Part shown: piece by piece, positions 2,824-61,448 of the stretch
Position numbering within the stretch: the first letter of the stretch is position 1
How the letters are laid out: the number at the start of each line of letters is the position of its first letter
Position numbers and translations under genes: made by a program
From: Marinomonas pontica
GTDB lineage: Bacteria; Pseudomonadota; Gammaproteobacteria; Pseudomonadales; Marinomonadaceae
DNA: 64,000 nt
Reading direction: 5' to 3'
Assembly: GCF_026191375.1 (NCBI RefSeq)
Contig: NZ_JAODTL010000050.1
Span: 1-64,000, forward strand
The notes under the pieces: model-generated
The model's database searches: none
What the model saw: the letters and a program-made list of their open reading frames with translations, nothing else
What the model was told of the DNA's origin: nothing

Positions 2824-2838
2824 CCGACCTTCTTGTAT

Positions 2839-3258
2839 TTATTCTATGCCGCTAAAGATGTCTTTTTTAAGCTGCTTGATATCGCGACGTTCTTTTTTGT
2901 TTGGCTTGTGGTCGGACATGATACGGCCACCAAAGGACTTGTTTTCGAGGGCGCGTTTTTCACGTTTTGCAATCGACTCAGGTGTTTCCTCGTAAAGCAA
3001 TTGCGCTTCGGGGGCGCCACGGCGCTGTTCGCTGATGGCTTTGATTTCGACGACTCTTTCATCCCAGCCGAGACGAATGCCAATTAAGGCGCCAATTTCC
3101 ACATTTCGGCTGGCTTTGCCTTTGCTGCCGTTGTAAGACACCTTGCCACCATCAATGGCGTCTTTACAAAGTGAACGAGTTTTATAAAAACGTGCGGCCC
3201 AAAGCCACTTATCTAAACGAACGGCTTGTGGTGCCGACTGCTTTTCTGGTTTACTCAT
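2839..3258 (-). CDS. hslR: Heat shock protein 15, ribosome-associated S4 protein
   Basis: Hsp15 binds free 50S subunits carrying a nascent chain and helps recycle stalled ribosomes. The 139-residue protein has an S4 RNA-binding domain from about residue 13 (VRLDKWLWAARFYKTRSL), with DGGKVSYNG and a WDERV segment, then a basic, charged C-terminal tail typical of the family. Length matches the family (about 130-140). It is convergent with dprA (15 bp apart) and divergent from cysQ with only about 45 bp between starts. Confidence 0.9.
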   Translation of the reverse strand: MSKPEKQSAPQAVRLDKWLWAARFYKTRSLCKDAIDGGKVSYNGSKGKASRNVEIGALIGIRLGWDERVVEIKAISEQRRGAPEAQLLYEETPESIAKREKRALENKSFGGRIMSDHKPNKKERRDIKQLKKDIFSGIE

Positions 3259-3302
3259 AAAGAATGCGTTGACCCTATTCTGTTGTCATATTTGAGGCTG
3301 TT

Positions 3303-4151: not shown

Positions 4152-4180
4152 CGCTTACTCTGCTTCCCAGACCATTTCCA

Positions 4181-4783: not shown

Positions 4784-4810
4784 AACGAAGCTCCTGAACG
4801 GATAGTAAAC

Positions 4811-4824
4811 CCATTGTACAAGGG
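4811..4824. promoter_or_regulatory. Candidate TetR operator
   Basis: A quasi-palindrome centred on TTGTACAA (4814-4821), with flanking CC and GG also symmetric. It lies 28 bp upstream of the tetR start, in the divergent intergenic region with the FabF-type gene. Symmetry is visible; the role is inferred from position. Confidence 0.4.
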
Positions 4825-4905
4825 TGTTTAAATATTATCTTGATCATATAAAGACTCACTCTAGCATGGCTCTTTTCTTTCTGCTGAAATTAAAGAGGAT
4901 GAACC

Positions 4906-6174: not shown

Positions 6175-6205
6175 CCTACGTAAACCACCGAGCAAACTGA
6201 AATAA

Positions 6206-6238
6206 AAAAGGCGACTCCATTGGAATGAGTCGCCTTTT
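6206..6238. terminator. Bidirectional terminator
   Basis: A 12-bp perfect stem (AAAAGGCGACTC / GAGTCGCCTTTT) with A/T tracts on both sides. It lies between the convergent fabF-type gene and dctM and can end transcription from either side. Confidence 0.9.
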
Positions 6239-6266
6239 ATTATCGCTGCTTTTTTCTGTATTGCTG

Positions 6267-7589
6267 TTAGCCATCCATTAGTTGGTTAGGTAACCAAGTA
6301 ACAAGCTCTGGGAACATCATCACGATGACAAGAACCAAGAGTTTTAACAGCACAAATGGTGTAATGGATTTGTAGATATCCAACATGGTGATGCCCGGAG
6401 GCGCGATGCCTTTTAGGTAGAATAAGGCAAAACCATAAGGCGGCGTTTGTACGGCGATCTCAATGTTAAGAATCATTAAGATACCAAACCAAATCGGATC
6501 ATAGCCAAGCGACACAGCAATCGGTGTGAAGATAGGCGCACACATTAGGACGATGATAAATTCATCGATAATGAAGCCCAGCAATAACATGATCAATTGG
6601 AACAACATGATGACGACAATCGGTGGTAAACCCAAATCTTGGGTGAAACCAGCGACCATGTTTTGCACGCCCATCAGCAAATGGAAGTTACTGAACACGG
6701 ACGCACCAACGATAATCCACATGGCCACACTGACCAGCAATGCGGCTTGCATTCCCGCTTTTTGTACCATGCGTGGTTTGAAGCGTTTAAAGAAAATCGC
6801 CAGAACAATCGCGCCAACCACACCGATAGCACCGGATTCTGTTGGTGTCGCAATGCCCATGATAATACTGCCAAGTACCGCAACGATCAGCAGCAGAGAT
6901 AATATGCCATCACGCGCGGTGAGGAACTTCTCTTTTGGTGTTGGCTGTACTTCAGGCACCACATCCATCGGCGCACGCTTAGGGTTCAATTTACATGAAA
7001 TTACCACATAAGCGATCAGCAAAATGATGGTGATCAGCGCTGGAATCAAGGCACCGATAAACATGCGCCCTACTGAGTTTTGTGTAGACGATGCAAACAT
7101 GATCATTGGAATGCTAGGTGGAATCAAAATACCCAAGCCACCGCCGGCCATAATAACGCCAAGTGCGAGGCGTTTATCGTAACCACGCTCCAACATGGGA
7201 CGCAGTGCGATACTGCCCGATGTCATGATACCCGCACCGATGATGCCGACCATGGCGCCGATCATAGAACACACCACGATGACGCTAATCGCCAATGAAC
7301 CGCGCACACGGCCAATCAACATTTGGCTGGCGTTAAACATGGCATCGCCAATGCCGGAACGAGTCAGTAATTGCCCCATGTAAATATACAAAGGTATGGC
7401 TAGCAGGATGAAACTAAAATGTGTCGACTCAAGCGTAGTGGGAATAACGTTAAAAAGCGCATCGCCCCAAGTCATGTAACCTATGCCCATGGCAATACCG
7501 CCAAGCGCCAAACCAACAGGCGCACCTAAGGCAAACGACGCGATGATGCAGGCAAAGAGAATGCCTGTTAATAATTCAATGCTAATCAT
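6267..7589 (-). CDS. dctM: TRAP transporter large permease (DctM)
   Basis: Large membrane subunit of a tripartite ATP-independent periplasmic transporter that uses the sodium gradient to import an organic acid. 440 residues, strongly hydrophobic, about 12 membrane segments. Typical DctM stretches include GIIGAGIMTSGSIALRPML, GGGLGILIPPSIPMIMFA and the C-terminal IEIAVQTPPYGFALFYLKG. Its ATG overlaps the dctQ stop by 4 bases, indicating translational coupling. The substrate cannot be read from this subunit. Confidence 0.94.
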   Translation of the reverse strand: MISIELLTGILFACIIASFALGAPVGLALGGIAMGIGYMTWGDALFNVIPTTLESTHFSFILLAIPLYIYMGQLLTRSGIGDAMFNASQMLIGRVRGSLAISVIVVCSMIGAMVGIIGAGIMTSGSIALRPMLERGYDKRLALGVIMAGGGLGILIPPSIPMIMFASSTQNSVGRMFIGALIPALITIILLIAYVVISCKLNPKRAPMDVVPEVQPTPKEKFLTARDGILSLLLIVAVLGSIIMGIATPTESGAIGVVGAIVLAIFFKRFKPRMVQKAGMQAALLVSVAMWIIVGASVFSNFHLLMGVQNMVAGFTQDLGLPPIVVIMLFQLIMLLLGFIIDEFIIVLMCAPIFTPIAVSLGYDPIWFGILMILNIEIAVQTPPYGFALFYLKGIAPPGITMLDIYKSITPFVLLKLLVLVIVMMFPELVTWLPNQLMDG

Positions 7590-8140
7590 TGTGCGCTTTC
7601 CTCTTGTTCGGACGGTGCTTTTGGCAACAAAGGTTTGCCAGTAATGGCTTGGTGTAAGGAATCAATCCAATCGCTGGAAAGCTGTAAAATAAGCAGCACA
7701 CTGGCAATGGCCATCATTAACCAATAATGATGCATGTGCGGAGCCCATTCACTTTGACGTCGATAGTTAAACTGGAGCGCTTCTTCAAACTTACCTATGC
7801 TCATTTTGCAAACGATCACCATGAAGAACATGGCAAGGGCGAATGAAAATAGGTTAAATATGCTTTTCGTCCGAGCTGAAACTTTGTTGTAAAGGATATC
7901 CACATTGATGTGAGCGCGTTGCTGTTGAGCATAAGCACCGCCTAATGCCGCAATATAGCCAAAGATAAATAAAGAGGTGTCGTAGGCCCAAATAGTCGGA
8001 CTGTCTAAGAGGTAACGAGAGAAAACCTCGAACGCAACGACAAAGGCTAATACTGGCATAAGATAGGAAACGGAATTCCCAATGAAAGCCACCAACGCGT
8101 GGACTCCAAGACAATAGCGCCTAATCGCAGTCATTATCAT
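7586..8140 (-). CDS. dctQ: TRAP transporter small permease (DctQ)
   Basis: Four-helix small membrane subunit that pairs with DctM. 184 residues with hydrophobic segments near 15-40, 48-70, 90-115 and 135-160; the segment PTIWAYDTSLFIFGYIAALGG is typical of DctQ. Co-transcribed with dctM (4-base overlap). An in-frame ATG two codons downstream is an alternative start. A hairpin separates it from dctP upstream. Confidence 0.92.
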   Translation of the reverse strand: MIMTAIRRYCLGVHALVAFIGNSVSYLMPVLAFVVAFEVFSRYLLDSPTIWAYDTSLFIFGYIAALGGAYAQQQRAHINVDILYNKVSARTKSIFNLFSFALAMFFMVIVCKMSIGKFEEALQFNYRRQSEWAPHMHHYWLMMAIASVLLILQLSSDWIDSLHQAITGKPLLPKAPSEQEESAQ

Positions 8141-8174
8141 TGTTTTGTACCTGTCAGGATGAATCGGAAAAAGT

Positions 8175-8203
8175 AAAACGGCCTTCTTAATGAAGGCCGT
8201 TTT
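8175..8203 (-). terminator. Intra-operon hairpin between dctP and dctQM
   Basis: A 12-bp perfect stem (AAAACGGCCTTC / GAAGGCCGTTTT, 5-nt loop) directly after the dctP stop. In transporters of this kind such hairpins stabilise or partly terminate the transcript, so the binding protein is made in excess over the permeases. The hairpin is visible; the effect is inferred. Confidence 0.75.
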
Positions 8204-8220
8204 AGTTATTGCTGAGTCAA

Positions 8221-9249
8221 TTATTTCTGTTCTTTGCGTAGAACGTCAATCAACTCTTTGCTGTATTTGTCTGCAGCGGCGTACTCATCCCAAAGTTTAG
8301 AACCCGCGTCTTTCCATGCGGCTTTGTCGGCAGCACTTGGCTCAGGGCTCCACTGAAGACCTTTTGCTTCCATGTCCGCAACGGCTTCAGATTCCCAAAG
8401 TTTAGACTTGGTCATTTGCTCTTGTGCGTGAACCGTTGTTGCGGCTTTTACAATCGCTTGTAGGTCAGCTGGTAGTTTGTTCCAAGCGCTTTGGTTCACG
8501 ATAATAGGTAACACTTGTGCGCCAGCTAGTGGAAGTGGGTACATGTATTTCGCTACTTCAACGTGGTTGCCGTCGCGGTGATCGATCATGTTAGATCCGA
8601 TAGAACCGTCGATTACACCAGTAGATAAAGACGTGTAAATTTCAGACCAAGCAAGTGACACCGGAGAAGCGCCTAGGTTGCGAAGGAACTTACCGTATGC
8701 GCCTGGTGCACGAATTTTCAAACCTTGGAAATCAGCAACAGAGTTGATTGGCTCTTTAGTGATAACGTAAACCGCTGGCTGAATGTAAGGGTCAAGCCAA
8801 ACTAGACCTTGTTCGCCGTACGCTTTTTTAAGGATTGGCGCCCAGCCTTTTTGTTGGAACAAGGTTGTCAGTTCACCAACGTCGCTTGTGCCACCTGGTA
8901 GACCGATCTCAACCAAGCCTGCTGGCAGTTCGCCTGCGTTCAAAGATTGGAAAGTCGCACCCATGGTGATTAGGCCTGTTTTCACGGCACCAAAAATACC
9001 AGAAGAACCCACACCTTCACCATCGTACAATACTTGTACTTTGATGCGGCCGTCAGACATAGTCTCAATGTTTTTTGCCAAATCTTCGTACACAGCACCG
9101 AAGGCAGAGCCACGGCTGTATAGGTTGGCAAAGCGCCAGTTATAGTCAGCGGCCTGAGCGGCGGAAGAAGCCATTACGCCAAGACCTAAAGTGACTGCTA
9201 GAGAACTCGCCACCAATCGTTTTTTTACTTTTAGTATCGTATTAATCAT
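8221..9249 (-). CDS. dctP: TRAP transporter substrate-binding protein (DctP)
   Basis: Periplasmic solute receptor delivering substrate to DctQM. I place the start at 9249 (MINTILKVKKR) because a GAGG site lies just upstream and a standard signal peptide follows, with AAQA-A cleavage near residue 33. The longer frame to 9288 lacks such a site. KIRAPGAYGKFLR, around residue 165, carries the Arg that usually pairs with the substrate carboxylate; SEIYTSLSTGVIDG is the conserved lobe-two motif. 342 residues. Probably binds a small carboxylate or 2-oxo acid; not more precise from sequence. Confidence 0.92.
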   Translation of the reverse strand: MINTILKVKKRLVASSLAVTLGLGVMASSAAQAADYNWRFANLYSRGSAFGAVYEDLAKNIETMSDGRIKVQVLYDGEGVGSSGIFGAVKTGLITMGATFQSLNAGELPAGLVEIGLPGGTSDVGELTTLFQQKGWAPILKKAYGEQGLVWLDPYIQPAVYVITKEPINSVADFQGLKIRAPGAYGKFLRNLGASPVSLAWSEIYTSLSTGVIDGSIGSNMIDHRDGNHVEVAKYMYPLPLAGAQVLPIIVNQSAWNKLPADLQAIVKAATTVHAQEQMTKSKLWESEAVADMEAKGLQWSPEPSAADKAAWKDAGSKLWDEYAAADKYSKELIDVLRKEQK

Positions 9250-9494
9250 TGAGCTACCTCGAGAGCAAAAAGTGCATAAAAAGATCACGTCTGACTGACG
9301 CGATAACTTGTGTTCGATACTTTCAAAAAGGCTTCGTGCGTTAAAGCACGCAAAATCTATCTAAAGTTTTGTGGGTATCAAACAATCAAAAAATTCAAAA
9401 GCCCTTAAAAATCAGGCTACTAAGGGAAATGGCCGCACTCAAATTGCGCGCAACGCACAATATTGGTGCAAATTAATGTTGAAGGTGGCTCATC

Positions 9495-40666: not shown

Positions 40667-40719
40667 ACGCTCAAATTAAATGAATGCAAATTTAATGTAA
40701 AATAACGTAAATTCACTAT

Positions 40720-40738: not shown

Positions 40739-40803
40739 GTTTAGCATCTCCTTCTCATTAAAAATATAAATAACTCTAATATAAATTTTGTATGGATAAA
40801 CGA

Positions 40804-43002
40804 ATGAAAAACGCGACTCCTAGTTACACTCCTTTCAAAGTAGCACCCATTGCTATCGCGGTCAGCTCTGCACTCGCACTGATGAGCTCAGCAGCTCTTG
40901 CAGCAGAGCAAAGCGACATTGAGTTGGAACAGATTGAAGTGGTTGATACAGCACAAGATGGTTATGTGGTGAAATCCGCTGCGAGTGCGAAATACACGCA
41001 GGAATTGGTAGATACGCCTCAGACAATCAATGTGGTCAATGAGCAAGTTTTAGAAGACCAAGGCATTACTTCTCTCGAAGATGCTTTGCGTAACGTATCG
41101 GGCGTTTCTACTTTTGGCGCTGGTGAAGGCGGTGGTGGTAACGTAAACACAACAGATAATGTGACGATACGTGGCTTTGATGCAAATGGTAGTATTTACT
41201 CCGATGGCATCCGTGATGTAGCTGGCTACAGTCGCGATACGTTTAACACAGAACAAATTGAAGTAGCGAAAGGTGCCAATGGTACTATTTCAGGCAAAGG
41301 TTCAGCAGGTGGATCGGTTAACTTAGTAACCAAAGCAGCCAACTTACGTGGTGACAAAAACAGCATCAGCGCCTCTTATGATGAAGGTGACACCGCCCGA
41401 TTAACTGGTGACTTCAACAAAGTATTATCTGAAGACAGCGCCCTTCGCTTAAACCTGATGACTGAACAAGGTGGCGATTACTGGGACAACGGTGAAGAAG
41501 AATACAAAAGTTACGCCATTGCACCCTCTTATTTCACTAAGGTCAGTGAAAACACAGACTTAACCATCAACCTTATGCATATGAAGCAAGACAACACTCC
41601 TGTGATTGGCTTGCCGTTCATTACTGAAACTGTTGCAACTCAAACAGGTTTATCTGAGGGTATGATTGCAGAACAGTATTGGAGTAATTACTACGGCGTC
41701 AAAGGACTGGATTTCGAAGAGGTCGATGCCACAACCCTAACCGCGATTATCAACCATCAACTTAATAACCGCTGGGCTTTTCGCAACCAAACTCGTTTTG
41801 GTGTAACAGAAACCAAGAGCATTATTACACGTCCTTGGGCAAACTCAGATGGCACCTATAGTACTGAGCGAGCGAGTACTAACTTTAGCGAGAACCAACT
41901 GGCCGTTTCACAGTTTGACTTCTTAGGTGAAATCATAACCGGCTCAATCAAGCACGATCTTGTGGTTGGTGCAGAAATTTATCAAGAAACACAAAAGACA
42001 CCAAATGTAAGCTTGGATAATGTGGTGCGTTCACAAACCAGCTACGATGCAACAAACCCTGGTGTTACCACGGCAACAGGCTCGTACACAGTGGATGGCT
42101 ACTCCAAAGATGCTACTGCAACAGGCTTAGCCGCTTACTTAAGCAACACTGCCACGTTAAATGATCAGCTTCAATTAGCTGGTGGCGTGCGACTTGAGAA
42201 ATACAAGATCGACAGTACACAAAATGTTGGTCGCGGCTCGAGCGCTACATCCGTTAGTGCTGTCGATAAATCAGACCTAATTAGTTGGCACACGGCAATT
42301 AATTTTAAACCAACCAACAACGGTAGTATTTACGCCTCTTTTGCTAATAACCAAGAACCTAACGGCAACAACTTATCATTGAATGGTCGTAGTGCTGAGC
42401 AAGTAGCAGAATACACAAGCCTAGATCCTATTGAGTCTATCACCGCAGAGGTCGGTACGAAGTGGGAGCTATTTGACGACAAACTTTTGTTGGCCGCAGC
42501 GGTTTTCCAAACAAGAAAAGACGTTTACCAAACAGTTGATAATGTCTTGGAAGCATCCGGTGAGCAAGAAAGCAAAGGGGTGGAACTGTCTGTTACAGGC
42601 CAACTGACCGATACGGTTAGCATCACTGCTACCTACACTCATCAAAATGCGAAAGTGACTGAATCCTCATCATCGGATGATGTGGGCGATGGATTAAGCT
42701 CAGCTCCTGAGGAATCCGCTAGCGTTTGGCTTTCATACAAAGGCGAGAAACTAGGTTTAGGACTAGGCGCAGAATATACATCTGGCAATGACTACTGGCG
42801 TGGTAGTGAGGTCTACTTCACAACAGGCGAAGTAACTTTGGTTAATGCCATGGCGAGCTATGCCTTTACTGAAAACTTGTCAGCACAGTTAAATATTAGC
42901 AACCTAACGGATGAGCGTTATGCATCAGACTACAGCGCTAAGGGGCATTTCTTGCCTGGCAACCCACGCAATGTAAAAGCAACAGTGAAGTACGATTTCT
43001 AA
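40804..43002 (+). CDS. TonB-dependent catecholate siderophore receptor (Fiu-like)
   Basis: Outer-membrane receptor of about 732 residues. Signal peptide to about residue 33 (ALAAEQ), a TonB-box-like stretch near IEQIEVVDT, plug domain with VDTPQTINVVNEQVLEDQ, IRGFDANGSIYSDGIRD and GSAGGSVNLVTKAA, then a 22-strand barrel ending in the usual terminal Phe (VKYDF). Start at 40804 is preferred because GGA lies at proper distance; 40792 is also in frame. It is followed by PiuC, the usual partner of Fiu/PiuA receptors. Imports ferric catecholates. Confidence 0.9.
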   Translation: MKNATPSYTPFKVAPIAIAVSSALALMSSAALAAEQSDIELEQIEVVDTAQDGYVVKSAASAKYTQELVDTPQTINVVNEQVLEDQGITSLEDALRNVSGVSTFGAGEGGGGNVNTTDNVTIRGFDANGSIYSDGIRDVAGYSRDTFNTEQIEVAKGANGTISGKGSAGGSVNLVTKAANLRGDKNSISASYDEGDTARLTGDFNKVLSEDSALRLNLMTEQGGDYWDNGEEEYKSYAIAPSYFTKVSENTDLTINLMHMKQDNTPVIGLPFITETVATQTGLSEGMIAEQYWSNYYGVKGLDFEEVDATTLTAIINHQLNNRWAFRNQTRFGVTETKSIITRPWANSDGTYSTERASTNFSENQLAVSQFDFLGEIITGSIKHDLVVGAEIYQETQKTPNVSLDNVVRSQTSYDATNPGVTTATGSYTVDGYSKDATATGLAAYLSNTATLNDQLQLAGGVRLEKYKIDSTQNVGRGSSATSVSAVDKSDLISWHTAINFKPTNNGSIYASFANNQEPNGNNLSLNGRSAEQVAEYTSLDPIESITAEVGTKWELFDDKLLLAAAVFQTRKDVYQTVDNVLEASGEQESKGVELSVTGQLTDTVSITATYTHQNAKVTESSSSDDVGDGLSSAPEESASVWLSYKGEKLGLGLGAEYTSGNDYWRGSEVYFTTGEVTLVNAMASYAFTENLSAQLNISNLTDERYASDYSAKGHFLPGNPRNVKATVKYDF

Positions 43003-47340: not shown

Positions 47341-47474
47341 GATGTGCTGTTTCAAGCGATACTTTGAATGTAAAGTAAAGTAAATAACATTAAAGGCGAT
47401 AATGGTTTTTATTTACTTATTTTCGGCAATTTGTAAAGATCACCCCCCTATTTGCCAACTTGATATTTAACTCT

Positions 47475-52297: not shown

Positions 52298-52316
52298 AAT
52301 AATGATTAACATTACC
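52298..52316 (+). promoter_or_regulatory. Fur-like box upstream of the second TonB receptor
   Basis: AATAATGATTAACATTACC matches the Fur consensus at 15 of 19 positions, with a clear ATAATGAT left half. About 85 bp before the receptor start. Confidence 0.7.
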
Positions 52317-52400
52317 ATTCAGTTATTTTCTCCCATATGTTAATATTTCTTTAAATTTACTTATCTTTACATTCCTTTGACACTATGGAGCCGCATTATT

Positions 52401-54536
52401 ATGAAACCCACTTTGGTCGCACTGGCTGTTGCATTGGCATCCGGTGCCCTACACGCCGACAATGAACTAAATACACTCCTGATTGAAGGACAGGCAGAGC
52501 TTCAAACAACAGACAAAGCTCGCGTGAGTGAAGCCGAAGGTGCAACCACTACGACTAGCGAAGACATTGTTGAAGCACAAGCTTCGAATTTGGCAGACGC
52601 CTTGCAAAGCAATGCTGCCGTACAAATCGACGAAGTGGGTGGCTCTCGCGGTAGCACCATTACCGTTCGTGGACAAACGGGTAATGCTGTCAGTGTTCGA
52701 GTAGAAGGTGCTCCCAACAACCGTAGCCAGATCATGCACAAAGGCAGCAACGACCGTGACACCATTTGGTTAAACATGGACATGTATGAGTCTGTGACGG
52801 TTATCCCTGGCGCCGCGGCAAATACCTACGGCAATGGTTCAACCGGTGGCGTGGTTCTACTAGAAACCAAGGACCCAGAGTCGATTATTCGCGAGGACCG
52901 AGATTGGGGCGCCAACCTGCGCTACACCCATGAGACGAATGGTGAAGCGAATGGTATTAGTACGGATGTTGCGAAGCAGTTTAACGACAAATTCTCTGCA
53001 AATGCGACCATCTCCGCCAAGGATACTAACGCCTACGAAGACGCAAATGGCGTTAAGACAGACAATGGCGGTACGGGCTCAGAAGACCTAAGTTACCTAT
53101 TAAAAGGCGTATTTACGCCTGATGAAGCACAGCGTTTAGAAGTCAGCATTCTACAAAACAATATGGACTATTCTGATTATGCTGACGATGGCACCGAAAC
53201 GAAAAAGAAAGTACGTGACCGCACTCTGTCGGGACAATACACCTTCAATCCAAAAGACAATGACCTTGTCGACCTGAAAATCCGTGTCTCGCAAGCAGAA
53301 AGCGATCAGGACTCCGATGAAGGTACTGGGGATTGGTCAAATACAGGTGGCGTGACAACCACCTACGCAGAAATCGAAAATACCAGTGTTTTCTTCCCGA
53401 CTCAAAATACCATGCACGTTACTCGATACGGCTTAGATTACACCTTTGATGACGTTCGCATGTCTTACGACAATGACGACGGCACTCCAAAGCAAGTGGA
53501 ACGTACTTCCATCGGTGCTTATCTGTCTGACACCATGCACATCGGCGAAGATCTGCAGTTAACTGGTAGCTTGCGTTATGACTCTTATAACGCCGATTAT
53601 GCTGGGCGTGAAGCACAAGGTGAGGATTCTATTAACTCGAAATTGTCCGCGCTTTGGAAGCCATTTGAAAACACAGCCATTCATGGCCTTGGCTTTACCG
53701 CGTTAGTGGGTTCTGGTTACCGTGCTCCAGCCGTATATGAAATTTACGGTAAAAAGTTCACATCTGAATACTTTACAGGCACAGATGCTGACGGTGATGG
53801 TGTATACGAAACAGGCAACCTAGCCGGGTGTGGCGATGGCAACGGTAACTGGTGTGTCATCGAAAACGAAGACCTTACTGGTGAAACTTCCTTGGACACA
53901 GAAGTGGGTCTGACCTTTGAGCGTATGGGCATATGGCAAACCACTGACCGTTTAGATGCCAATATCAGCTACATTCATAACGACTTAAAAGACAAAATCT
54001 ACAACGAGCTACTGGGCACACTTGATACAAGCATCGGCACTTACAACGGTAGTGCCTACAATGTGCGTCAGTTTGTCAACAAAGACGAAGCCGCCATATA
54101 CGGTTGGGAGCTGGCCGCTCGCTATGATAGCCCTCTTATCTTTGCCAATTTCACATTCCAAGATATGAATGGTTATGTGGTTGAAGACGATGGTACGAAA
54201 TCCAAAGATACTAGCATTATTCCTCGTAGCATTAGCGTCACATTAGGTACTTACTTTAACGATCAAAAAGGTCGTGTCGGCTTCGATACCAAGTATCGAA
54301 AAGGGCGTGTTGAAGAAGGTACTCGAAGCACCAGTGAATACCTGACATACACCGTATATGACGTGTTTGCTTCTTACCGTTTCACTGAAAACCTCAGTGC
54401 CCAACTACGCGTTGATAACGTTACCAATAAGTTATACAGCAAAAGCGAGACATCGGAAGACTCAACCACGGGCGAAGATACAACGTCTTATCAGCCAGGC
54501 CGTAACGTTAAGCTTGGGGTGAATTACCGCTTTTAG
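52401..54536 (+). CDS. TonB-dependent receptor, haemoglobin/transferrin type
   Basis: 711 residues from the ATG at 52401. Signal peptide to about 21, TonB-box-like NTLLIEG, plug with SRGSTITVRGQTGNAVSVRVEG and NTYGNGSTGGVVLLETKD, long barrel ending VNYRF. In the barrel YRAPAVYEIYG (about 444-454) and NEDLTGETSLDTEVGL (about 492-507) resemble the FRAP and NPxL boxes of haem/haemoprotein receptors. An extracellular loop has DADGDGVYETG and a Cys pair (AGCGDG, NWCV), a calcium-loop-like insert. The ligand may be haem, haemoproteins or a chelate. Confidence 0.85.
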   Translation: MKPTLVALAVALASGALHADNELNTLLIEGQAELQTTDKARVSEAEGATTTTSEDIVEAQASNLADALQSNAAVQIDEVGGSRGSTITVRGQTGNAVSVRVEGAPNNRSQIMHKGSNDRDTIWLNMDMYESVTVIPGAAANTYGNGSTGGVVLLETKDPESIIREDRDWGANLRYTHETNGEANGISTDVAKQFNDKFSANATISAKDTNAYEDANGVKTDNGGTGSEDLSYLLKGVFTPDEAQRLEVSILQNNMDYSDYADDGTETKKKVRDRTLSGQYTFNPKDNDLVDLKIRVSQAESDQDSDEGTGDWSNTGGVTTTYAEIENTSVFFPTQNTMHVTRYGLDYTFDDVRMSYDNDDGTPKQVERTSIGAYLSDTMHIGEDLQLTGSLRYDSYNADYAGREAQGEDSINSKLSALWKPFENTAIHGLGFTALVGSGYRAPAVYEIYGKKFTSEYFTGTDADGDGVYETGNLAGCGDGNGNWCVIENEDLTGETSLDTEVGLTFERMGIWQTTDRLDANISYIHNDLKDKIYNELLGTLDTSIGTYNGSAYNVRQFVNKDEAAIYGWELAARYDSPLIFANFTFQDMNGYVVEDDGTKSKDTSIIPRSISVTLGTYFNDQKGRVGFDTKYRKGRVEEGTRSTSEYLTYTVYDVFASYRFTENLSAQLRVDNVTNKLYSKSETSEDSTTGEDTTSYQPGRNVKLGVNYRF

Positions 54537-54570: not shown

Positions 54571-54594
54571 GAGCAGCCTTCGGGCTGCTCTTTT
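54571..54594 (+). terminator. Terminator after the second TonB receptor
   Basis: 8-bp stem GAGCAGCC / GGCTGCTC closed by a stable TTCG loop, then TTTTCTTGTTTT. Confidence 0.92.
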
Positions 54595-54635
54595 CTTGTT
54601 TTCATTAAATGATCAAAGTGTAAATCAAAGTAAAT

Positions 54636-54654
54636 ACAAATGAGAATCAATGCT
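54636..54654 (+). promoter_or_regulatory. Weak Fur-like site upstream of the lamin-tail operon
   Basis: ACAAATGAGAATCAATGCT contains the AATGAGAATCA core common in Fur sites, 11 of 19 consensus positions. It lies about 50 bp before the lamin-tail gene. If real, it would place this operon under iron control. Confidence 0.4.
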
Positions 54655-54703
54655 ACTTAAAGGCATAATATGACCAAATTATGACGATTTAATAACTCAT
54701 TCT

Positions 54704-55240
54704 ATGTATCAGACTTATCGTTCTATTAAACCCTATCTATTTACTGGTTTTATGGCGGTCACTGCGGTGGTTGCATTTGCTCTGCACCAGACCACAGTGA
54801 CAGCAGCAGCCAATCAATTGTTTATCAGCGAAGTATCGTTTGCCAATAACGATAAGCAGGATTGGATAGAACTCTACAATCCAAGCCTCAACAGTGTTTC
54901 CTTGAAGGGCTATTACCTTAGCGACGACCTAGACGACCCCGAACGTTTTCGTATTCCGTTTGATGTCATCGTCCCTGCACATGGCACCGCTTTGTTGCAT
55001 GGGGAAAAAGCGGAAAATCTACCTATGAATGCGATCAAGCTTAACTTTAGTCTTGGCAATGGTGAAACAGTCACTCTGACCAGTCCAAGTGGCAAAACCC
55101 AACTGGACCGCATTGCTTTAATCGCTCCGGCTTCTTACAAAGGCCAATTTTCGATAGGCCATAAAATAAAGAATCCTGACATAGTGGAAATTTCCTATCA
55201 GCCAACACCTGGACAACTTGTAGGGGTGACGGCTCGATGA
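54704..55240 (+). CDS. Exported lamin-tail domain protein
   Basis: 178 residues. One N-terminal hydrophobic segment (LFTGFMAVTAVVAFALH) as signal or anchor, then a single lamin-tail (LTD) beta domain: LFISEVSFANNDKQDWIELYNPS, LKGYYLSDDLDDP, VIVPAHGTALLHGEKA, LNFSLGNGETVTL. LTD domains occur on surface and secreted proteins, often with CotH and nucleases. Stop overlaps the VTC gene by 4 bases. Function unknown; operon suggests an extracellular or envelope role. Confidence 0.82.
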   Translation: MYQTYRSIKPYLFTGFMAVTAVVAFALHQTTVTAAANQLFISEVSFANNDKQDWIELYNPSLNSVSLKGYYLSDDLDDPERFRIPFDVIVPAHGTALLHGEKAENLPMNAIKLNFSLGNGETVTLTSPSGKTQLDRIALIAPASYKGQFSIGHKIKNPDIVEISYQPTPGQLVGVTAR

Positions 55241-55947
55241 GTAAAACATTAAAAGTTCAGCGTCATGAGGTGAAGTATTACATCAGCTACGCGGATTACG
55301 AATACGCGCGCCATCTACTTGCAACCCTCATGCAGCGGGACCCTCATCAAAAAGACGAACGAGGCTACTTCATTCGTAGTCTTTATTTTGATGACGACTA
55401 TGACACCAGCGTTGAGGAAAAGCTGGACGGGATTGAGCACCGTGATAAATACCGTTTACGCACCTACGACCCAACGCTTAACTGGGTCAAGTTAGAACGT
55501 AAGCGCAAGCACAACCAATTTGTGAACAAAAGCTCAGTCCGCCTGAGCAAGGCTGAAGCGCTGCAAATGATCGATGGGGATGTGGACTTTTTACTTGAGA
55601 AGGACAGCCAAAGTGCACGTTCTATCTACTTTGATTTAAAACGTAAATTTATCCGCCCGAAAGTGATCGTCGATTACGACCGGGAAGTCTACATGCTCGA
55701 CTACAACGACATTCGAGTGACGTTTGATAAAAACATCCGCGTTAATACCAGCGATTTAGATCTATTTAACCCGGATCTTGAAACGCAAACTTTGCAGCGC
55801 CCGGACACCATCATCATGGAGGTCAAGTTCAATACCTGCTTGCCCTCTTGGTTCTCGACTTTGCTGAAGCTCGATGGCACAACCGCCATGGCGATTAGTA
55901 AATATTGCCAAGGCCGAATGCATATGCGCGAGTATTACGGCGACTGA
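55237..55947 (+). CDS. VTC-domain protein (polyphosphate polymerase type)
   Basis: 236 residues, soluble. The VTC domain of yeast Vtc4 makes polyphosphate from ATP inside a basic tunnel. Visible family features: HEVKYYIS at the start, YFIRSLYFDDDYDTSVEEK (about 41-59), KYRLRTYDP, VKLERKRKHNQFVNKSSV (about 85-102, basic tunnel residues), IMEVKFN near the C-terminus and the closing MAISKYCQGR. Partner DUF4956 follows 45 bp downstream. Activity as polymerase is inferred; bacterial VTC proteins are little studied. Confidence 0.85.
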   Translation: MSKTLKVQRHEVKYYISYADYEYARHLLATLMQRDPHQKDERGYFIRSLYFDDDYDTSVEEKLDGIEHRDKYRLRTYDPTLNWVKLERKRKHNQFVNKSSVRLSKAEALQMIDGDVDFLLEKDSQSARSIYFDLKRKFIRPKVIVDYDREVYMLDYNDIRVTFDKNIRVNTSDLDLFNPDLETQTLQRPDTIIMEVKFNTCLPSWFSTLLKLDGTTAMAISKYCQGRMHMREYYGD

Positions 55948-55992
55948 TTTATCCCCTTTAACTCATTAACCCTTGAAACAAGACGAAACATC

Positions 55993-56682
55993 ATGGACTC
56001 AACTAACCTAAGCCAAATACTCAATAACAGCCTACTCTTTTCGGAAAACACCATGAGTGTGCTGCAGATTTTGTTGTCATTATCGATCACTTTCTTGATG
56101 GCAATGTTTATCTATTTTATCTATAAGCGCACCTACAATGGTGTACTGTACTCGCAAAACTTCAACATCACCTTGGTGATGACGGCCATTGCGATCAACG
56201 CCATCGTCATCGGCATCAGTGGCAATTTAATGCTGTCTTTGGGCATGGTCGGTGCCTTATCGATCATCCGTTTTCGTACAGCCGTCAAAGATCCTCGCGA
56301 TACGGCCTTTATCTTTTGGTCCATCATGGTGGGTATCGCCAACGGCGTGGCCTATTACGAGTTATCATTTATCGCGAGCATTTTCATTGCCATCGTTCTC
56401 TGGGGGCTGTCACGTTCGGTCACCTTCGAGCCTGCTTACATGCTTATCATTAAGTATCCACGCAGTAGCGATTGGGCGTCTGTACAGAATATTTTAGATG
56501 ACCGCAAATTGGTCAACAGCTACCTAACCCGCTCTGACACCCTAAAAGGGGACGTGGTCGAACGCGTTACCGAAGTCAAAATTAAGCGCGGTCAGCAAGA
56601 ACCTCTTCTTACTCAGCTGCGCTCATGCGCGAGCATCAACAGCTGTGTTCTTCTTTCAAGTAACGGCGAATTTACGGAATAA
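55993..56682 (+). CDS. DUF4956 membrane protein
   Basis: 229 residues with about four N-terminal helices (LQILLSLSITFLMAMFIYFIY, LVMTAIAINAIVIGISGNLML, and two after) and a soluble C-terminal domain from about 150. SLGMVGALSIIRFRTAVKDPRDTAF (region about 79-103) is the family hallmark, with conserved Arg, Lys and Asp inside or next to the membrane. DUF4956 consistently accompanies VTC genes, suggesting a polyphosphate or similar anionic polymer channel. Not demonstrated. Confidence 0.85.
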   Translation: MDSTNLSQILNNSLLFSENTMSVLQILLSLSITFLMAMFIYFIYKRTYNGVLYSQNFNITLVMTAIAINAIVIGISGNLMLSLGMVGALSIIRFRTAVKDPRDTAFIFWSIMVGIANGVAYYELSFIASIFIAIVLWGLSRSVTFEPAYMLIIKYPRSSDWASVQNILDDRKLVNSYLTRSDTLKGDVVERVTEVKIKRGQQEPLLTQLRSCASINSCVLLSSNGEFTE

Positions 56683-56683
56683 T

Positions 56684-58297
56684 ATGATGAAACACCTATC
56701 TCGACGTTGGGCCATCGCGCCTTTATATGCAGCCTTGTTCGCAGCCAGCACTCAGGTCTCTGCGGCCAACAATGCCATTGAACTGAATGTGGCACAGCCA
56801 CCTTTATCGACCCCAGCTATCTTAGTCAAAGACGGCCGTATCCTCATTACCCGCGGTGGTACTTACCGCCTAACGGGACAAAGTGACAACGGTCAAATCT
56901 GGGTCAACACAGGGGACGAGAAAGTTACGTTACAGCTGGATAATATCCAACTGTCCAACGCTTACGGGTCTGCTCTGTACCTCGAAGAAGCGGGTGATGT
57001 GGATGTCGAATTGATGCCAAACTCCAACAACCGTTTTGAAGACCACAACCACAGCGCGGAGAAAGAAGGCGAAGCAAAACAAAACGCGCCAATTTACTCT
57101 AAAGCCGATCTAAAAATCACCGGAGCACCACAAGCCACATTGACCATCGTGGGCCGCTATAAAGACGGTATCGTGAGCAAAGACGATCTTGATATTCGTC
57201 GCGCCAACATCAGCATCGAAACCGTAGACGATGGTTTATACGGACAGGACAGTGTCGATATCCGTGACTCTAAGATCCTAATCAAGGCGGGTGACGACGG
57301 CATTAAAGCCGACAATGAGGAGCGCGAAGACAAAGGTTTTGTTCACATCGAAGGCAGCGATATTCAGATTTTCGCAAAAGACGATGGCATCAAGGGCGTC
57401 CGCAAAGTCGACATTTACAGCGGCAATATTCGTGTCGAGGAATCCTATGAGGGCATTGAGAGTCGTAACATCACGATTCATGGTGGCAATATTTTTGTTA
57501 AGTCGGAAGACGATGCTCTGAATATTTCAGATGGCAGTGGCGCCAATGAACCAAGCTTTGGCGAACGCGTGAAAGGCTTTTTCAAAGGCGGTGAGCGTGG
57601 TGAACACCCTGAAGGCGAAATGGGCGAACGCCCTCCTCGCGGCGAGCGACCAGAAGGCCAACCTAGTGAACGCCCTCCTCGCGGCGAGCGACCAGAAGGC
57701 CAACCTAGTGAACGCCCTCCTCGCGGCGAGCGACCAGAAGGCCAACCTAGTGAACGCCCACCACATGGCGGCGGTAAAGCCAAAGTAGATGGCATCATGA
57801 CCATCTTAGGCGGCCGCACGCACATTCAATCCAGTGGTGACGGCTTTGACTCGAATGGTGACGCTATGATGAGTGGCGGTGAACTGTTTATCGAAGGCCC
57901 AACCAGTGGTCGTGATGGCTATATTGATGTGGATGGTTTCTTCAAACTGACTGGTGGCCGTTTATTTGCCATGGGCAGTGCTGGCATGGCACAAGCCCCT
58001 TCTGACGACTCTACTCAGCCAGTTATTCAGATCAACTTAGAAAGCACTTATGCAAAAGGGGCCACCGTCACCATCACCCATGTCGAGAGCAATCAGGTGT
58101 TTGAACAAGTGATGCCAATGGACTTCCAATCGTTCACTGTTTCTGAGCCTGAATTCACGCTGGGGCAAACTTACCAAGTGCAAATTAATGGCGAAGACAT
58201 TACCACTGTCACACTGGAGACCGTCATTACCCGCTTTGGTAATGCTGGACGCGGCGGCCCTAGAGGTGAGCGGGGTGAAAAGAAAGGTTGGTGGTAA
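56684..58297 (+). CDS. Exported Cthe_2159-like beta-helix protein with tandem repeats
   Basis: 537 residues. Signal peptide to about 27. Repeating short strands such as KADLKITGAPQATLTIVG, SKDDLDIRRANISIETVDDG, VDIRDSKILIKAGDDGIKADN and VEESYEGIESRNITIHGGN fit the parallel beta-helix of the carbohydrate-binding Cthe_2159 family, which binds acidic polysaccharide and calcium. An Arg/Pro/Glu-rich insert with three perfect 14-residue repeats (ERPPRGERPEGQPS) lies near 315-360, between two helix parts. ATGATG start follows the DUF4956 stop by 1 base. Last gene of the LTD-VTC-DUF4956 operon. Confidence 0.82.
   Translation: MMKHLSRRWAIAPLYAALFAASTQVSAANNAIELNVAQPPLSTPAILVKDGRILITRGGTYRLTGQSDNGQIWVNTGDEKVTLQLDNIQLSNAYGSALYLEEAGDVDVELMPNSNNRFEDHNHSAEKEGEAKQNAPIYSKADLKITGAPQATLTIVGRYKDGIVSKDDLDIRRANISIETVDDGLYGQDSVDIRDSKILIKAGDDGIKADNEEREDKGFVHIEGSDIQIFAKDDGIKGVRKVDIYSGNIRVEESYEGIESRNITIHGGNIFVKSEDDALNISDGSGANEPSFGERVKGFFKGGERGEHPEGEMGERPPRGERPEGQPSERPPRGERPEGQPSERPPRGERPEGQPSERPPHGGGKAKVDGIMTILGGRTHIQSSGDGFDSNGDAMMSGGELFIEGPTSGRDGYIDVDGFFKLTGGRLFAMGSAGMAQAPSDDSTQPVIQINLESTYAKGATVTITHVESNQVFEQVMPMDFQSFTVSEPEFTLGQTYQVQINGEDITTVTLETVITRFGNAGRGGPRGERGEKKGWW
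57626..57767 (+). repeat. 42-bp in-frame tandem repeat, three copies
   Basis: Units start at 57626, 57668 and 57710 and are identical over 42 bp; a degenerate fourth begins at 57752. Each unit codes for 14 residues (ERPPRGERPEGQPS). Perfect identity means recent expansion, so copy number probably varies between strains. Confidence 0.95.
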
Positions 58298-58477: not shown

Positions 58478-59668
58478 CTAAACCTCTTGATGTGGGCCGA
58501 AGAGTTCGTAATGAATGCGGTCGGCTTCTACACCAAGGCTGAGTAGTTGCTGTTTCACAAACATCATGAAGCCCACTGGGCCACATAAGTAAAACTCACC
58601 ATCCGTCAGCGGTAGGCTGTCTTTTACTGCGTCAATTTGCATCATACCGTTCAATACGCCTTGCGCTTCGTTGCCTGCTTGTTCGTACCAAGTGTAAACA
58701 GACAGGTTGAGCTGCTCTTTTAGGCTGTTTACGTGGGCGTCAAATGAATGCTGACCTTGATGCGTACAGGCGTGCAAGTAGCTGATGGGTTGGGCGTATT
58801 GTTGTTTTGCTAATGTGTCTAACATGGCTTGCATCGGGGTTAAGCCAACACCACCAGAAATCAGCACCACCGGTCTTTGTTTGTCTTGGAAAAAGAAGTC
58901 GCCTGCGGGTGGCATGGCTTCTATTTCATCGCCTACGGTGATGTGATCATGCAGGTAATTCGACATGACGCCGGCGATCTCTCCTGTGCCTTCGCGTTTC
59001 ACGCTGATGCGATAGCTGCTGCCATTTGGCGCTGTAGACAGTGAATATTGACGAATTTCGTCGAACTCGTTGCCTTCTGGGTGCAATTTGATGCCAAGAT
59101 ATTGACCTGGTTGATAGTCGATCACCGCGCCGCCATCAACAGGTTCGAACACAAAGCTGGTAACCAGATCCGACTCAGGTGTTTTTGACGCCACTCGAAA
59201 ACGACGGAAGTCTTTCCAGCCGCCTTGTTGCGCCGCGCGCTCCGCATATAGGTCGCCTTCTACCTTAATAAAAATACCCGCAAGTTGTGTGTAAGCCGCA
59301 ACCCACGCCTCTTCTACTTCTTTGGTGAAGGCGTCTGGCGCCAGTTCACGTAGGGTTTCAATCAAGTGATGACCCACAATATCGTATTGGTTTGGTTGGA
59401 TATTGAAACTGGTGTGCTTATGGGCGATACGCATCACGGCGCTGGTTAGCACTTCTAAGTTATCGATGTGCGTTGCGTAGGCTGCGATAGCATTAAACAG
59501 TGCAGCAGGTTGGCCACCCGTTCTTTGGTGTGTCATGTTAAACACATCTTTTAACTCTGGGTTGTGTGAAAACATACGCTTGTAAAAATGCTCAGTAATG
59601 GCCGTACCCGCAGACGCAAGAAGTGGGATGGTCGCTTTCACTGTATCTATGTGTTGTTGAGATAACAT
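58478..59668 (-). CDS. hmp: Flavohaemoglobin, nitric oxide dioxygenase
   Basis: 396 residues, cytoplasmic. Converts NO and O2 to nitrate using NAD(P)H. Globin domain about 1-140, proximal His in MRIAHKHTSFNI (about 85), distal pocket in FYKRMFSHNPEL. FAD domain with RQYSLSTAPNGSSYRISVK, then NAD domain with VVLISGGVGLTPMQAML and FYLCGPVGFMMFVK, ending ELFGPHQEV. Divergent from norR; a sigma-54 promoter and NorR boxes lie upstream, so expression should follow NO. Confidence 0.97.
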   Translation of the reverse strand: MLSQQHIDTVKATIPLLASAGTAITEHFYKRMFSHNPELKDVFNMTHQRTGGQPAALFNAIAAYATHIDNLEVLTSAVMRIAHKHTSFNIQPNQYDIVGHHLIETLRELAPDAFTKEVEEAWVAAYTQLAGIFIKVEGDLYAERAAQQGGWKDFRRFRVASKTPESDLVTSFVFEPVDGGAVIDYQPGQYLGIKLHPEGNEFDEIRQYSLSTAPNGSSYRISVKREGTGEIAGVMSNYLHDHITVGDEIEAMPPAGDFFFQDKQRPVVLISGGVGLTPMQAMLDTLAKQQYAQPISYLHACTHQGQHSFDAHVNSLKEQLNLSVYTWYEQAGNEAQGVLNGMMQIDAVKDSLPLTDGEFYLCGPVGFMMFVKQQLLSLGVEADRIHYELFGPHQEV

Positions 59669-59732
59669 ATTGTGTCCTTTGCTTTAGTAAGTCATAAAAC
59701 GGGAATGAAATTGTTGAATTGTCTTTACTATT

Positions 59733-59747
59733 GCGAAGGACGTGCCA
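59733..59747 (-). promoter_or_regulatory. Sigma-54 promoter of hmp
   Basis: Minus strand reads TTGGCACGTCCTTCGCA: TGGCAC with the invariant GG, exactly ten bases, then GC of the -12 element. Transcription would begin about 55 bases before the hmp ATG. Needs an enhancer-binding protein, here NorR. Confidence 0.85.
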
Positions 59748-59801
59748 AATAAAAAAATTAAAATAAAATCAACATCTTGGGTTTTTATGTCGTGATTTAG
59801 A

Positions 59802-59812
59802 GTCATAATGAC
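59802..59812. promoter_or_regulatory. NorR box 1
   Basis: GTCATAATGAC, a perfect palindrome fitting the NorR core GT-N7-AC. It lies about 55 bp upstream of the sigma-54 promoter of hmp. Confidence 0.8.
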
Positions 59813-59845
59813 ACAAAAATAGTAAAGTCTTTATGATCTGATTGA

Positions 59846-59856
59846 GTCATAATGAC
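59846..59856. promoter_or_regulatory. NorR box 2
   Basis: Second perfect GTCATAATGAC, 44 bp from the first. A degenerate copy, GTCTTTATGAT (59827-59837), lies between them, giving the three-site enhancer layout known for NorR. Box 2 is also 26 bp before the norR start and may allow self-repression. Confidence 0.8.
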
Positions 59857-59882
59857 CTAACAATAATGAATTGCGAGCGTCC

Positions 59883-61448
59883 ATGAATCAGGTATCCAAT
59901 AATGCTCTACTGAGCTTTGCACTGGATTTGGCCAGTGCTGTGAATCACCCCAACCGATTTGAACAATTGGTTTATGCCGTGCGAGCCACCATAAACTGCG
60001 ATGCCGTTGTCTTATTGGCGCATCATCATGGCGTGCTAACCCCGCTTGCACAGCGCGGTTTGTCGGACGATGTGATGGGACGACGTTTCGTGATTGAAGA
60101 ACACCCACGACTACGCGAAATCTGCGCGGGGCATTATCCAGTACGTTTTCCCGCACATTCGACCTTGCCAGATCCCTATGACGGCATGGTACTAGGCCAC
60201 GACGAACAGTTGCCCGTGCATTCTTGCATGGGGGTTCCGCTTTACTTAGAAGGAAAATTGATTGGCGTGGTGACGCTGGACAGTATTTTGCCTGGTGTAT
60301 TTGATGACATTGATGCGCGCGCTTTAGAAATTATTGGCGCCATGGCGGCCATGACATTGAACACGGCGATGTTAATGGAACAACTGGAAAATCAATCTCA
60401 ACATGCTCAAAACGTATTGAAAGTAATGGGCGAACAAAGCCGTGAGATGATAGGTCAAAGCAAGGCGATGCAAGACCTCAAGCAGTCAATTAATTTGGTT
60501 GCCTCATCGGATTTTTCTATCTTAATCGAAGGCGAAACGGGCGTCGGCAAAGAGCTTGTTGCACGTGCGCTTCATGAGCGCTCTAACCGATCTGACGCGC
60601 CCATGGTGTATGTGAACTGCGCCGCCATTCCGCATCATCTTATTGAAAGTGAGCTGTTTGGCCATGTCAAAGGCGCGTTTACTGGTGCGGATCGAGACCG
60701 AGACGGTAAGTTCTTGTTAGCTGACGGTGGCACCTTATTATTGGATGAGATTGGCGAACTGCCGTTAGAAGTACAAGGTACCTTGCTCAGAGCGATTCAA
60801 AATCAAGAAATCCAAGCCGTCGGTAAAGATCAGATTCGCAAGGTAAACGTGCGCATCATTGCCGCAACCAACCGACACTTGGAAACCGAAGTGGTCGAGC
60901 ATCGTTTTCGTGCCGATTTATTCCATCGCCTTAGCGTCTTTCCTATTCAAGTTCCTGCCTTGCGCGATAGACAAGGCGACATTGCTTTATTGGCTGGCTT
61001 CTTCGCCGAACGCTTTCGCCGAAAACTGGGATTGCAGCAACTGACGCTATCGCCCGCCGCGATTCAGTTATTAGAAGCGTATCACTGGCCAGGTAATGTT
61101 CGAGAACTAGAGCACGTCATCTCTCGCGCCGCGCTTTTCGCCAAAGCGGACAATGCAACAGGTATTACAGTTATTTCATCAGCGCATTTAACTGGGTTAC
61201 AAATCGATGATAGTTTCCAAGAAAAGATACAGAAAAATGAACTGGAGCCGCTGCGCTTAGAAAAACACAAACCAATCGATTTGCGTTTAGAAACAGAAAC
61301 TTATCAACGAAATCTAATCCGTAAAGCGCTAGAAGAAAATCAAGGAAATTGGACCAAAGCCGCTCAGCAGCTGTCTATGGACCGCGCCAACCTAGCGCGC
61401 TTAGCGAAACGCTTGGGGATCGTCGTTGCCAAAGAAGTGCGTATTTAG
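59883..61448 (+). CDS. norR: NorR, NO-responsive sigma-54 activator
   Basis: 521 residues from the ATG at 59883. Domain order: GAF sensor (about 15-180) with [20 protein letters not shown] and VHSCMGVPL, where the His, Cys and Asp expected to hold the mononuclear iron are kept; AAA+ domain with Walker A GETGVGKE (217-224), the sigma-54 loop GAFTGA, and [14 protein letters not shown]; Fis-type DNA-binding helix at the end ([24 protein letters not shown]). NO binding to the iron frees the AAA+ domain. Divergent from its target hmp. Confidence 0.97.

Follow-up and report, generated by a model that had tools for sequence, protein, structure and literature searches.

An operon pairing VTC and DUF4956 proteins with two exported partners in Marinomonas pontica: a candidate polyphosphate module of the cell envelope

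What would a marine bacterium make with a polymerase-like enzyme, an inner-membrane protein and two exported proteins encoded in a single operon? The question is raised by a 64,000-nucleotide stretch of Marinomonas pontica DNA (contig NZ_JAODTL010000050.1, positions 1 to 64,000 of the forward strand), referred to here as the window. In it, genes for a lamin-tail domain (LTD) protein, a VTC-domain protein, a DUF4956 protein and a Cthe_2159 beta-helix protein follow one another on the + strand, each scoring above its own Pfam gathering score. A sequence-only reading of this DNA had described a compact operon of these four families, and its account of place and family names is borne out, the names being confirmed by Pfam. 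The LTD gene (54704..55240) encodes 178 aa (PF00932, 3.7e-14) with an N-terminus that by eye resembles a signal peptide. It overlaps by 4 bases the gene of the VTC protein (55237..55947, 236 aa), a putative polyphosphate polymerase which matches PF09359 at 1.2e-38 (133.5 bits against a cut-off of 23) and has no transmembrane segment by hydropathy. The DUF4956 inner-membrane protein (55993..56682, 229 aa; PF16316, 1.1e-14) comes next, and the Cthe_2159 protein (56684..58297, 537 aa; PF14262, 2.6e-61), again with a signal-peptide-like N-terminus by eye, closes the operon. The last two genes are separated by 1 base if Cthe_2159 starts at ATG 56684 and not at the mechanically called GTG 56645. The ATG is the most likely start, as it places a signal-peptide-like N-terminus immediately after the stop codon of DUF4956. 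Searching the whole genome returned a single match each for VTC, DUF4956 and Cthe_2159, all at the operon. The layout proposed earlier, with a cytoplasmic polymerase-like enzyme, an inner-membrane protein and two exported proteins, is likewise consistent with the sequences and the structural models.

We give an even chance to the proposal that the operon is a CpxR-linked envelope polyphosphate module, which would synthesise the polymer and export or display it. The proposal builds on the gene content, a conserved pairing of VTC with DUF4956, a predicted fold like that of yeast Vtc4, aligned tunnel residues and a CpxR-type box kept in three species. In such a module the VTC protein would be cytoplasmic, tethered to the membrane through DUF4956, and would polymerise nucleotide-derived phosphate inside a basic tunnel. 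DUF4956, predicted to have five helices, an MgtC-like character and a cytoplasmic ACT-like domain, might carry the chain through the inner membrane as it grows, or else control this passage. Outside, the product would be bound or anchored by the exported LTD protein and the acidic Cthe_2159 protein, divalent cations probably taking part. In Marinomonas the operon and the siderophore-receptor and efflux genes nearby are probably driven jointly by CpxR, which responds to envelope stress and surface contact.

VTC and DUF4956 form a conserved, widespread pair. Two genome sets were surveyed, 293 of the order and 369 of the class, which have five genomes in common and thus comprise 657 distinct ones. 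VTC occurs in 14 of the 293 and 9 of the 369, and DUF4956 in 21 (20 above the cut-off) and 13 (12 above it), respectively. All 22 VTC-positive genomes fall among the 33 DUF4956-positive ones (hypergeometric 3e-33, with genomes treated as independent and kinship ignored), and in 14 control genomes the two families are detected in the same three. One genome counted with both (G018) has its DUF4956 gene at the edge of a separate contig, beside a Porin_O_P-like gene.

Gene neighbourhoods were compared in 106 loci, namely the window, 22 gammaproteobacterial loci, three further Marinomonas loci and 80 named loci from one scan. The 80 are the best of at least 530 confirmed matches retrieved with patterns built from six VTCs close to that of the window, hence locus proportions are not those of a random sample of the VTC family. 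Removing four duplicates (L115, L116, L119, L120) and three loci without a called VTC left 99 for counting. The gene caller keeps the longest non-overlapping frames and for this reason missed VTC in L117, L139 and L147, which stay outside the 99-locus counts, and LTD in L023. DUF4956 also adjoins VTC in the three loci initially missed; on re-check L139 reads LTD+CotH, VTC, DUF4956 and L147 reads VTC, DUF4956, Cthe_2159. Neighbour counts rest on in-house iterated profiles and a 6-kb radius, with Pfam checks on representatives. Many loci are metagenome bins in which binning errors are possible, above all for the Gracilibacteria and WWE3 loci.

Within this sample DUF4956 lies no more than 6 kb from VTC in 90 of 99 loci, always on the same strand, and within 200 bases in 81 of those 90. 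The sequence-only reading had named co-occurrence of the families in other genomes as a check on its proposal, and the operon co-occurrence is strong at these loci as well as in genomes, where DUF4956 accompanies VTC in 22/22. Distances between VTC proteins correlate with those between DUF4956 proteins at 0.94 (90 loci), compared with 0.82 for VTC and CotH (58) and 0.78 for VTC and Cthe_2159 (21). Between Marinomonas species the ratio of nonsynonymous to synonymous substitution rates (dN/dS) is 0.010–0.018 for VTC and DUF4956, 0.054–0.082 for Cthe_2159 and 0.042–0.086 for LTD, the LTD dS being partly saturated. VTC and DUF4956 are under strong constraint in this genus; LTD and Cthe_2159 evolve faster.

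Two further arrangements were seen. Another Marinomonas genome (G680) carries a very distant VTC–DUF4956 pair flanking a 733-aa protein (L079, 7825-11267), which matched no Pfam or NCBIfam family. At L114 (1384-3296) a divergent DUF4956-like protein without VTC stands beside genes that by eye resemble those of a PhoU-type regulator and a Pit phosphate transporter.

Is the VTC protein a plausible polymerase? A PDB search with the single sequence gave no credible match; an alignment profile reached yeast Vtc4 at 7e-22. The AF2 model (pLDDT 91.9) has Vtc4 as its top PDB match (3g3r, E 2.9e-15, TMq 0.74), with tripolyphosphatases such as YgiF (5a60, 9e-8) well behind. The profile alignment pairs R9 with R196 of Vtc4, K13 with K200, R73 with R264, R75 with R266, E87 with E279 and K89 with K281, and a hand count on it, assuming a chain offset of 3, adds E195/E426, K197/K428 and K222/K458. 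These Vtc4 positions are taken as working tunnel residues. Across 66 VTC sequences R73, R75, E87, K89, K98, R149, R160, E195, K197 and K222 are invariant (66/66), and R9 and K13 are kept in at least 90%. As modelled, the VTC protein has a Vtc4-like tunnel fold with basic tunnel residues. Phosphatases of this fold are described as carrying four glutamates at positions that are basic in Vtc4 (PMC4641920, consulted in part). Three of the four could be placed in the window protein by motif spacing, and of these R9 and K197 are basic and E11 is Glu. A polyphosphate polymerase is favoured, not proven. The likeness to Vtc4 of the yeast vacuolar transporter chaperone (3g3q, 3g3r) covers the modelled tunnel fold and the aligned residues. 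The window protein differs in having no SPX domain and in carrying E11 for Thr, and its membrane part would be a separate protein, DUF4956.

The AF2 model of DUF4956 shows five long N-terminal helices and a C-terminal ACT-like domain. The C-terminal part has a weak Foldseek likeness to the C-terminal domain of MgtC (2lqj, 3.8e-3), and a DUF4956 profile run against PDB sequences found nothing credible. The DUF4956 protein of Oceanobacter kriegii matches MgtC (PF02308) at 1.3e-4 and 22.8 bits, below the 31.4 cut-off; for the window protein Pfam gives DUF4956 alone and no PF02308 assignment. The resemblance to MgtC/SapB consists of this sub-cut-off match and the weak C-terminal likeness, whereas DUF4956 is its own Pfam family and has other partner genes. 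A88, R93, R95, F108 and G114 are invariant in 68/68 sequences. If the C-terminal domain lies inside, R93, R95 and K99 would face the cytoplasm, where they would make a plausible entry for an anionic chain.

The third partner of the pair varies. Within 6 kb of VTC (99 loci), CotH is found at 64 loci and Cthe_2159 at 23, with both at 1 and neither at 13; LTD is found at 16, Porin_O_P at 7, HlyD at 3, OEP-like at 2 and PHO4 at 1. The single locus with both CotH and Cthe_2159 compares with 14.9 expected, kinship being ignored, and the Cthe_2159 label requires 7 changes on the VTC tree. CotH and Cthe_2159 look like alternatives for one slot, and in some loci CotH is fused to LTD or to a beta-helix. 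Cthe_2159 is rare in the order (4/293), standing beside VTC in three genomes and being a borderline match in the fourth. Pfam checks covered Porin_O_P in 5/7 loci and CotH in 8 of 64, and on representatives they bear out the CotH, Porin_O_P, HlyD, OEP (L044 only), PHO4 and beta-helix assignments. The HlyD profile flagged L032, L043 and L044 (Pfam not applied to L032) and overlooked L030, which has HlyD by Pfam. Proteins of L043 and L044 served as seeds for the OEP profile, and Pfam assigns OEP to that of L044 and not to that of L043. At L043 (8358-14546) and L044 (8041-12814) the order is DUF4956, HlyD, OEP-like, VTC, with a PHO4 phosphate transporter gene before VTC in L043. To judge from gene order, this run looks like a trans-envelope conduit, and the nearby genes for Porin_O_P, PHO4 and HlyD/OEP point to phosphate transport and export.

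The Cthe_2159 protein is strongly acidic, with a net charge of about -27, and matches 4peu by phmmer at 1.1e-29. This entry and 4phb, which the PDB labels as an uncharacterized protein, we take to be Cthe_2159 of Clostridium thermocellum. The beta-helix domain is common to both proteins, whereas that of the window adds an acidic tail and a repeat linker. A 42-bp tandem repeat in the gene (57626..57759, + strand), with 3.2 perfect copies, encodes the ERPPRGERPEGQPS repeats of this linker, which differs in M. communis and M. ostreistagni. The LTD protein is present in related operons too.

The full set of LTD, VTC, DUF4956 and Cthe_2159 was found at 9 loci: the window, M. ostreistagni, M. communis, O. 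kriegii, an Alteromonadaceae bin, Thalassolituus maritimus, a Thalassolituus bin and two Gracilibacteria bins, one of which has the set in rotated order. Within Marinomonas a close VTC occurs in 3/48 genomes, and a fourth genome has a distant VTC with DUF4956. The VTC tree groups the window with 8 rows (two Marinomonas, two Thalassolituus, Alteromonadaceae, two Gracilibacteria and WWE3) at support 100/97. This patchy distribution suggests lateral transfer of the operon, with binning error possible for the candidate-phylum loci. At one Thalassolituus locus (L024, 10316-12346) a divergent calcineurin-like phosphoesterase adjoins the four-gene operon.

What would switch the operon on? Directly before it lies a CpxR-type box, GTAAATCAAAGTAAA (54620..54634, + strand), a perfect case of GTAAA-N5-GTAAA, the form described for CpxR in the parts consulted of two sources (PMC3127752, PMC12802237). 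The box is identical in M. ostreistagni and M. communis, giving 3/3 Marinomonas operons, as is a 31-base block which contains it and ends at the putative -35 ATGAGA, itself identical in 3/3. The putative promoter just downstream (54640..54669, + strand) has this -35 at 54640-54645 and a -10 CATAAT at 54664-54669, matching at 9/12. Chance would give 9.2 sites of this grade in the scanned region, where 8 were counted, so that it is weak evidence alone. A terminator-like hairpin (54571..54590, + strand), its stem conserved in the Marinomonas relatives, lies between the upstream TonB receptor and the operon; such sites number 11 in the scanned region against 6.4 expected, again weak evidence alone. 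A PhoB box was considered by eye only, the repeat spacing being 10 against 11 in the consensus.

GTAAA-N5-GTAAA occurs 11 times in the genome, less often than the reversed control motif (27). One copy has a CpxP-family gene on one side and CpxR/CpxA-like genes on the other, the place expected for autoregulation; the best model for the CpxR-like protein is CpxR, at 293.6 bits against a cut-off of 341. Four of the 11 fall within a 14-kb part of the window, a clustering reached in 16/200,000 simulations with uniform placement. They precede the Fiu-like siderophore receptor gene (box 40697..40711, + strand; receptor 40792-43002), the MacA/MacB/outer-membrane-factor operon (47370..47384, + strand), the TonB receptor gene (52356..52370, - strand) and the four-gene operon. 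The site before the MacAB-like operon is also found upstream in 4 other Marinomonas genomes that were read, and among the relatives M. communis alone has a receptor site, which stands ahead of the first of two receptors. Of the remaining six copies, four are inside open frames, one stands before a calcium/sodium antiporter gene and one sits between two genes that converge. CpxR sites of P. aeruginosa, predicted or found by DNA affinity purification sequencing (DAP-seq), include efflux, siderophore-receptor and Pel/Psl genes (pslA, pelA) in the part consulted of PMC12802237, which makes a CpxR grouping of the operon with efflux and siderophore-receptor genes believable. That regulon shares with the window the CpxR box and the efflux and siderophore-receptor genes, some of its sites being from DAP-seq only. 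It differs in that the available text of the same source contains no polyphosphate term, VTC not having been searched for there.

The sequence-only reading had instead tied the operon to iron through a Fur-like site and the TonB receptor upstream. The Fur-like string, AATGAGAATCA at 54639-54649, is present and overlaps the putative -35. The 19-mer around it agrees at 11/19 with the Fur consensus, and 391/500 Markov-sampled sequences do as well. At the same position M. ostreistagni reads AATGAGATGCA and M. communis AATGAGAAACA, with 19-mers at 12/19 that were equalled by 149 and 138 of 500 samples, respectively. Fur control of the operon is not supported, the string being at chance level and its core altered in both relatives. 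A good Fur-type box (52298..52316, no strand assigned; 16/19, 0/500 samples as good) lies before the TonB receptor gene.

That receptor (52401..54536, + strand), whose best NCBIfam model is of the hemin family at 280 bits, under the 317-bit cut-off, is indeed the upstream neighbour. It was rejected as a fixed partner, since the receptor, like the efflux genes, is present without the operon in two Marinomonas genomes (G671, G213), and no relative of it was found in the available flanks of six related operons outside the genus (L023/L120, L024/L119, L117, L118, L121 with a short flank, and L122). PepSY was found near only one of the six, L118. At this locus (952-9471, the Alteromonadaceae bin) ExbB, ExbD, TonB_C, PepSY_TM and PPDK_N genes lie directly upstream of the four-gene operon on the same strand, along with a TPR gene, and the PepSY_TM protein is close to that of the window (5e-161). 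In the window itself, 33000-54536 is an iron and metal region with a PepSY_TM protein, ATP-binding cassette transporter genes (Zn/Mn-type by eye), the Fiu-like siderophore receptor, a PKHD-type dioxygenase, MacAB-like efflux and the hemin-type TonB receptor, and three of its promoters have CpxR-type boxes. The earlier iron link therefore fails in its Fur form and stands in another, through the CpxR-type box shared with three iron or efflux units and the neighbours at L118. To judge from these gene neighbourhoods, a wider iron link of the operon is possible.

Several observations weigh against the polyphosphate module. DUF4956 is missing within 6 kb at 9/99 VTC loci, some of them at contig ends, and 11/33 DUF4956 genomes have no VTC, 9 of these 11 having weak, divergent DUF4956 matches. 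The operon itself contains no HlyD, OEP or porin gene. The M. pontica genome also encodes PPK1, which makes general polyphosphate storage an unlikely role for the operon. Cthe_2159, being acidic, would need cations or basic patches to bind a polyanion. Confidence in the DUF4956 model is moderate (pLDDT 78.5), and Foldseek gave it no PDB match with an E-value of 1e-3 or lower. A CpxR-type box is absent upstream of 4/4 more distant operons read outside Marinomonas, and the motif was noticed after looking, with 4/11 of its copies inside open frames as noted above. We know of no activity for any protein of the operon. The residue at E11 is acidic in at least 90% of the 66 VTC sequences, Thr in Vtc4, and glutamates of the acidic patch hold the catalytic metal in TTM phosphatases, according to the part consulted of PMC4641920.

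This last point bears on an explanation that we consider unlikely, yet the foremost of those that dispense with the module. Here VTC would be a triphosphate hydrolase or nucleotide sensor which, with the ACT-like domain of DUF4956, regulates secretion or surface assembly of CotH or Cthe_2159, and no polymer would be made. The match of the fold to tripolyphosphatases, the retention of E11 and the ACT-like domain itself are consistent with it. Conversely, two acidic-patch positions are basic as in Vtc4 (R9 and K197, placed by motif spacing in place of a computed AtTTM3 alignment), K222, which corresponds to catalytic K458, never varies, and the Porin_O_P, PHO4 and HlyD/OEP genes nearby point to phosphate transport. 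A different use of the product is conceivable in which polyphosphate serves as phosphoryl donor for extracellular protein phosphorylation, with CotH as the kinase in most genomes and the Marinomonas Cthe_2159 protein as acceptor or substitute. ATP is scarce outside cells, CotH accompanies VTC at 64/99 loci and is sometimes fused to LTD or a beta-helix, and the near exclusion of CotH and Cthe_2159 would fit. However, the window operon has no CotH and nothing in the present data points to phosphorylation from polyphosphate, so we regard this use as improbable.

Equally improbable in our judgement is that the operon is foremost an accessory of iron uptake, under Fur or CpxR. Its location in the midst of siderophore-receptor, PepSY, PKHD-dioxygenase and MacAB-like genes, and the CpxR-type box common to the operon and three of those units, argue for it, as do the ExbB, ExbD, TonB_C and PepSY_TM genes upstream on the same strand at L118. 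The L118 neighbours led us to raise this explanation somewhat from a lower standing, and to lower that of the hydrolase by a trace. Against it, the Fur-like string is at chance level with an altered core in relatives, the receptor and efflux genes occur without the operon in two Marinomonas genomes, and around their operons Thalassolituus, Oceanobacter and the Gracilibacteria bins showed neither a TonB-receptor relative nor PepSY. In addition, the table row with the B. thetaiotaomicron DUF4956 gene BT3498 gives a lower rather than a higher value when iron is low (P 0.175) in the part consulted of PMC10434189.

The nearest published relatives of the operon are Pel-linked genes, known here from sources consulted in part. 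cotH, PPP and DUF4956 are accessory genes of Gram-positive Pel clusters (PMC7112168), and cotH-PPP-DUF4956 synteny is reported as not found outside Pel (PMC12345266). Deleting SIR_1592 and SIR_1594 in S. intermedius altered both Pel levels and aggregation, no such effect being named for SIR_1593 in the available text, and SIR_1592 is described as MgtC-like with an ACT domain (PMC12345266); SIR_1592 is probably the DUF4956 gene. A C. perfringens locus with VTC-domain and CotH genes is also on record (PMC2879425, in part). Among our 58 loci with CotH, VTC and DUF4956, a PelG-like gene lies in the stored flank of 21 and in none of the other 37, several flanks being short; the seeds of the PelG profile were confirmed. 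No PelG-like gene was found in the 19 kb of the window examined or in the 23 Cthe_2159 loci. The window operon resembles the Pel module in having a polymerase-type gene, if PPP is taken as VTC-type, next to DUF4956 and a secreted partner. It differs in having no CotH within 6 kb and no PelG-like gene, with Cthe_2159 and a separate LTD protein instead. From gene content, the best reading is that it is a Pel-free variant of the published cotH-PPP-DUF4956 genes, and as such it offers a Pel-free setting, in a marine genus, for testing the role of Pel-linked genes. The open-access literature yielded no paper with both DUF4956 and Cthe_2159 and none on the operon combination, subscription papers and preprints being outside the scope.

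Bacterial polyphosphate is usually credited to cytoplasmic PPK enzymes, and we know of no dedicated bacterial route for its export. The widespread yet uncharacterised VTC–DUF4956 pair may fill this place. Tentatively, and with more doubt than attaches to the envelope module itself, the pair could be a polyphosphate synthase-translocase of general occurrence in bacteria and archaea, a counterpart of the yeast VTC complex split into separate proteins, and would push polyphosphate out of the cell. Its outer parts would be interchangeable, including the CotH kinase, the Cthe_2159 beta-helix, LTD, a phosphate-selective porin and an HlyD/OEP-type conduit, and in Marinomonas envelope stress would switch it on along with iron uptake. 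If true, the pair with its swapping exported partners would constitute a dedicated export route and give DUF4956, bacterial VTC domains and Cthe_2159 a joint function.

Downstream of the operon, at 58478-61448 of the window, a flavohemoprotein Hmp gene diverges from NorR, an ordinary nitric-oxide detoxification pair.

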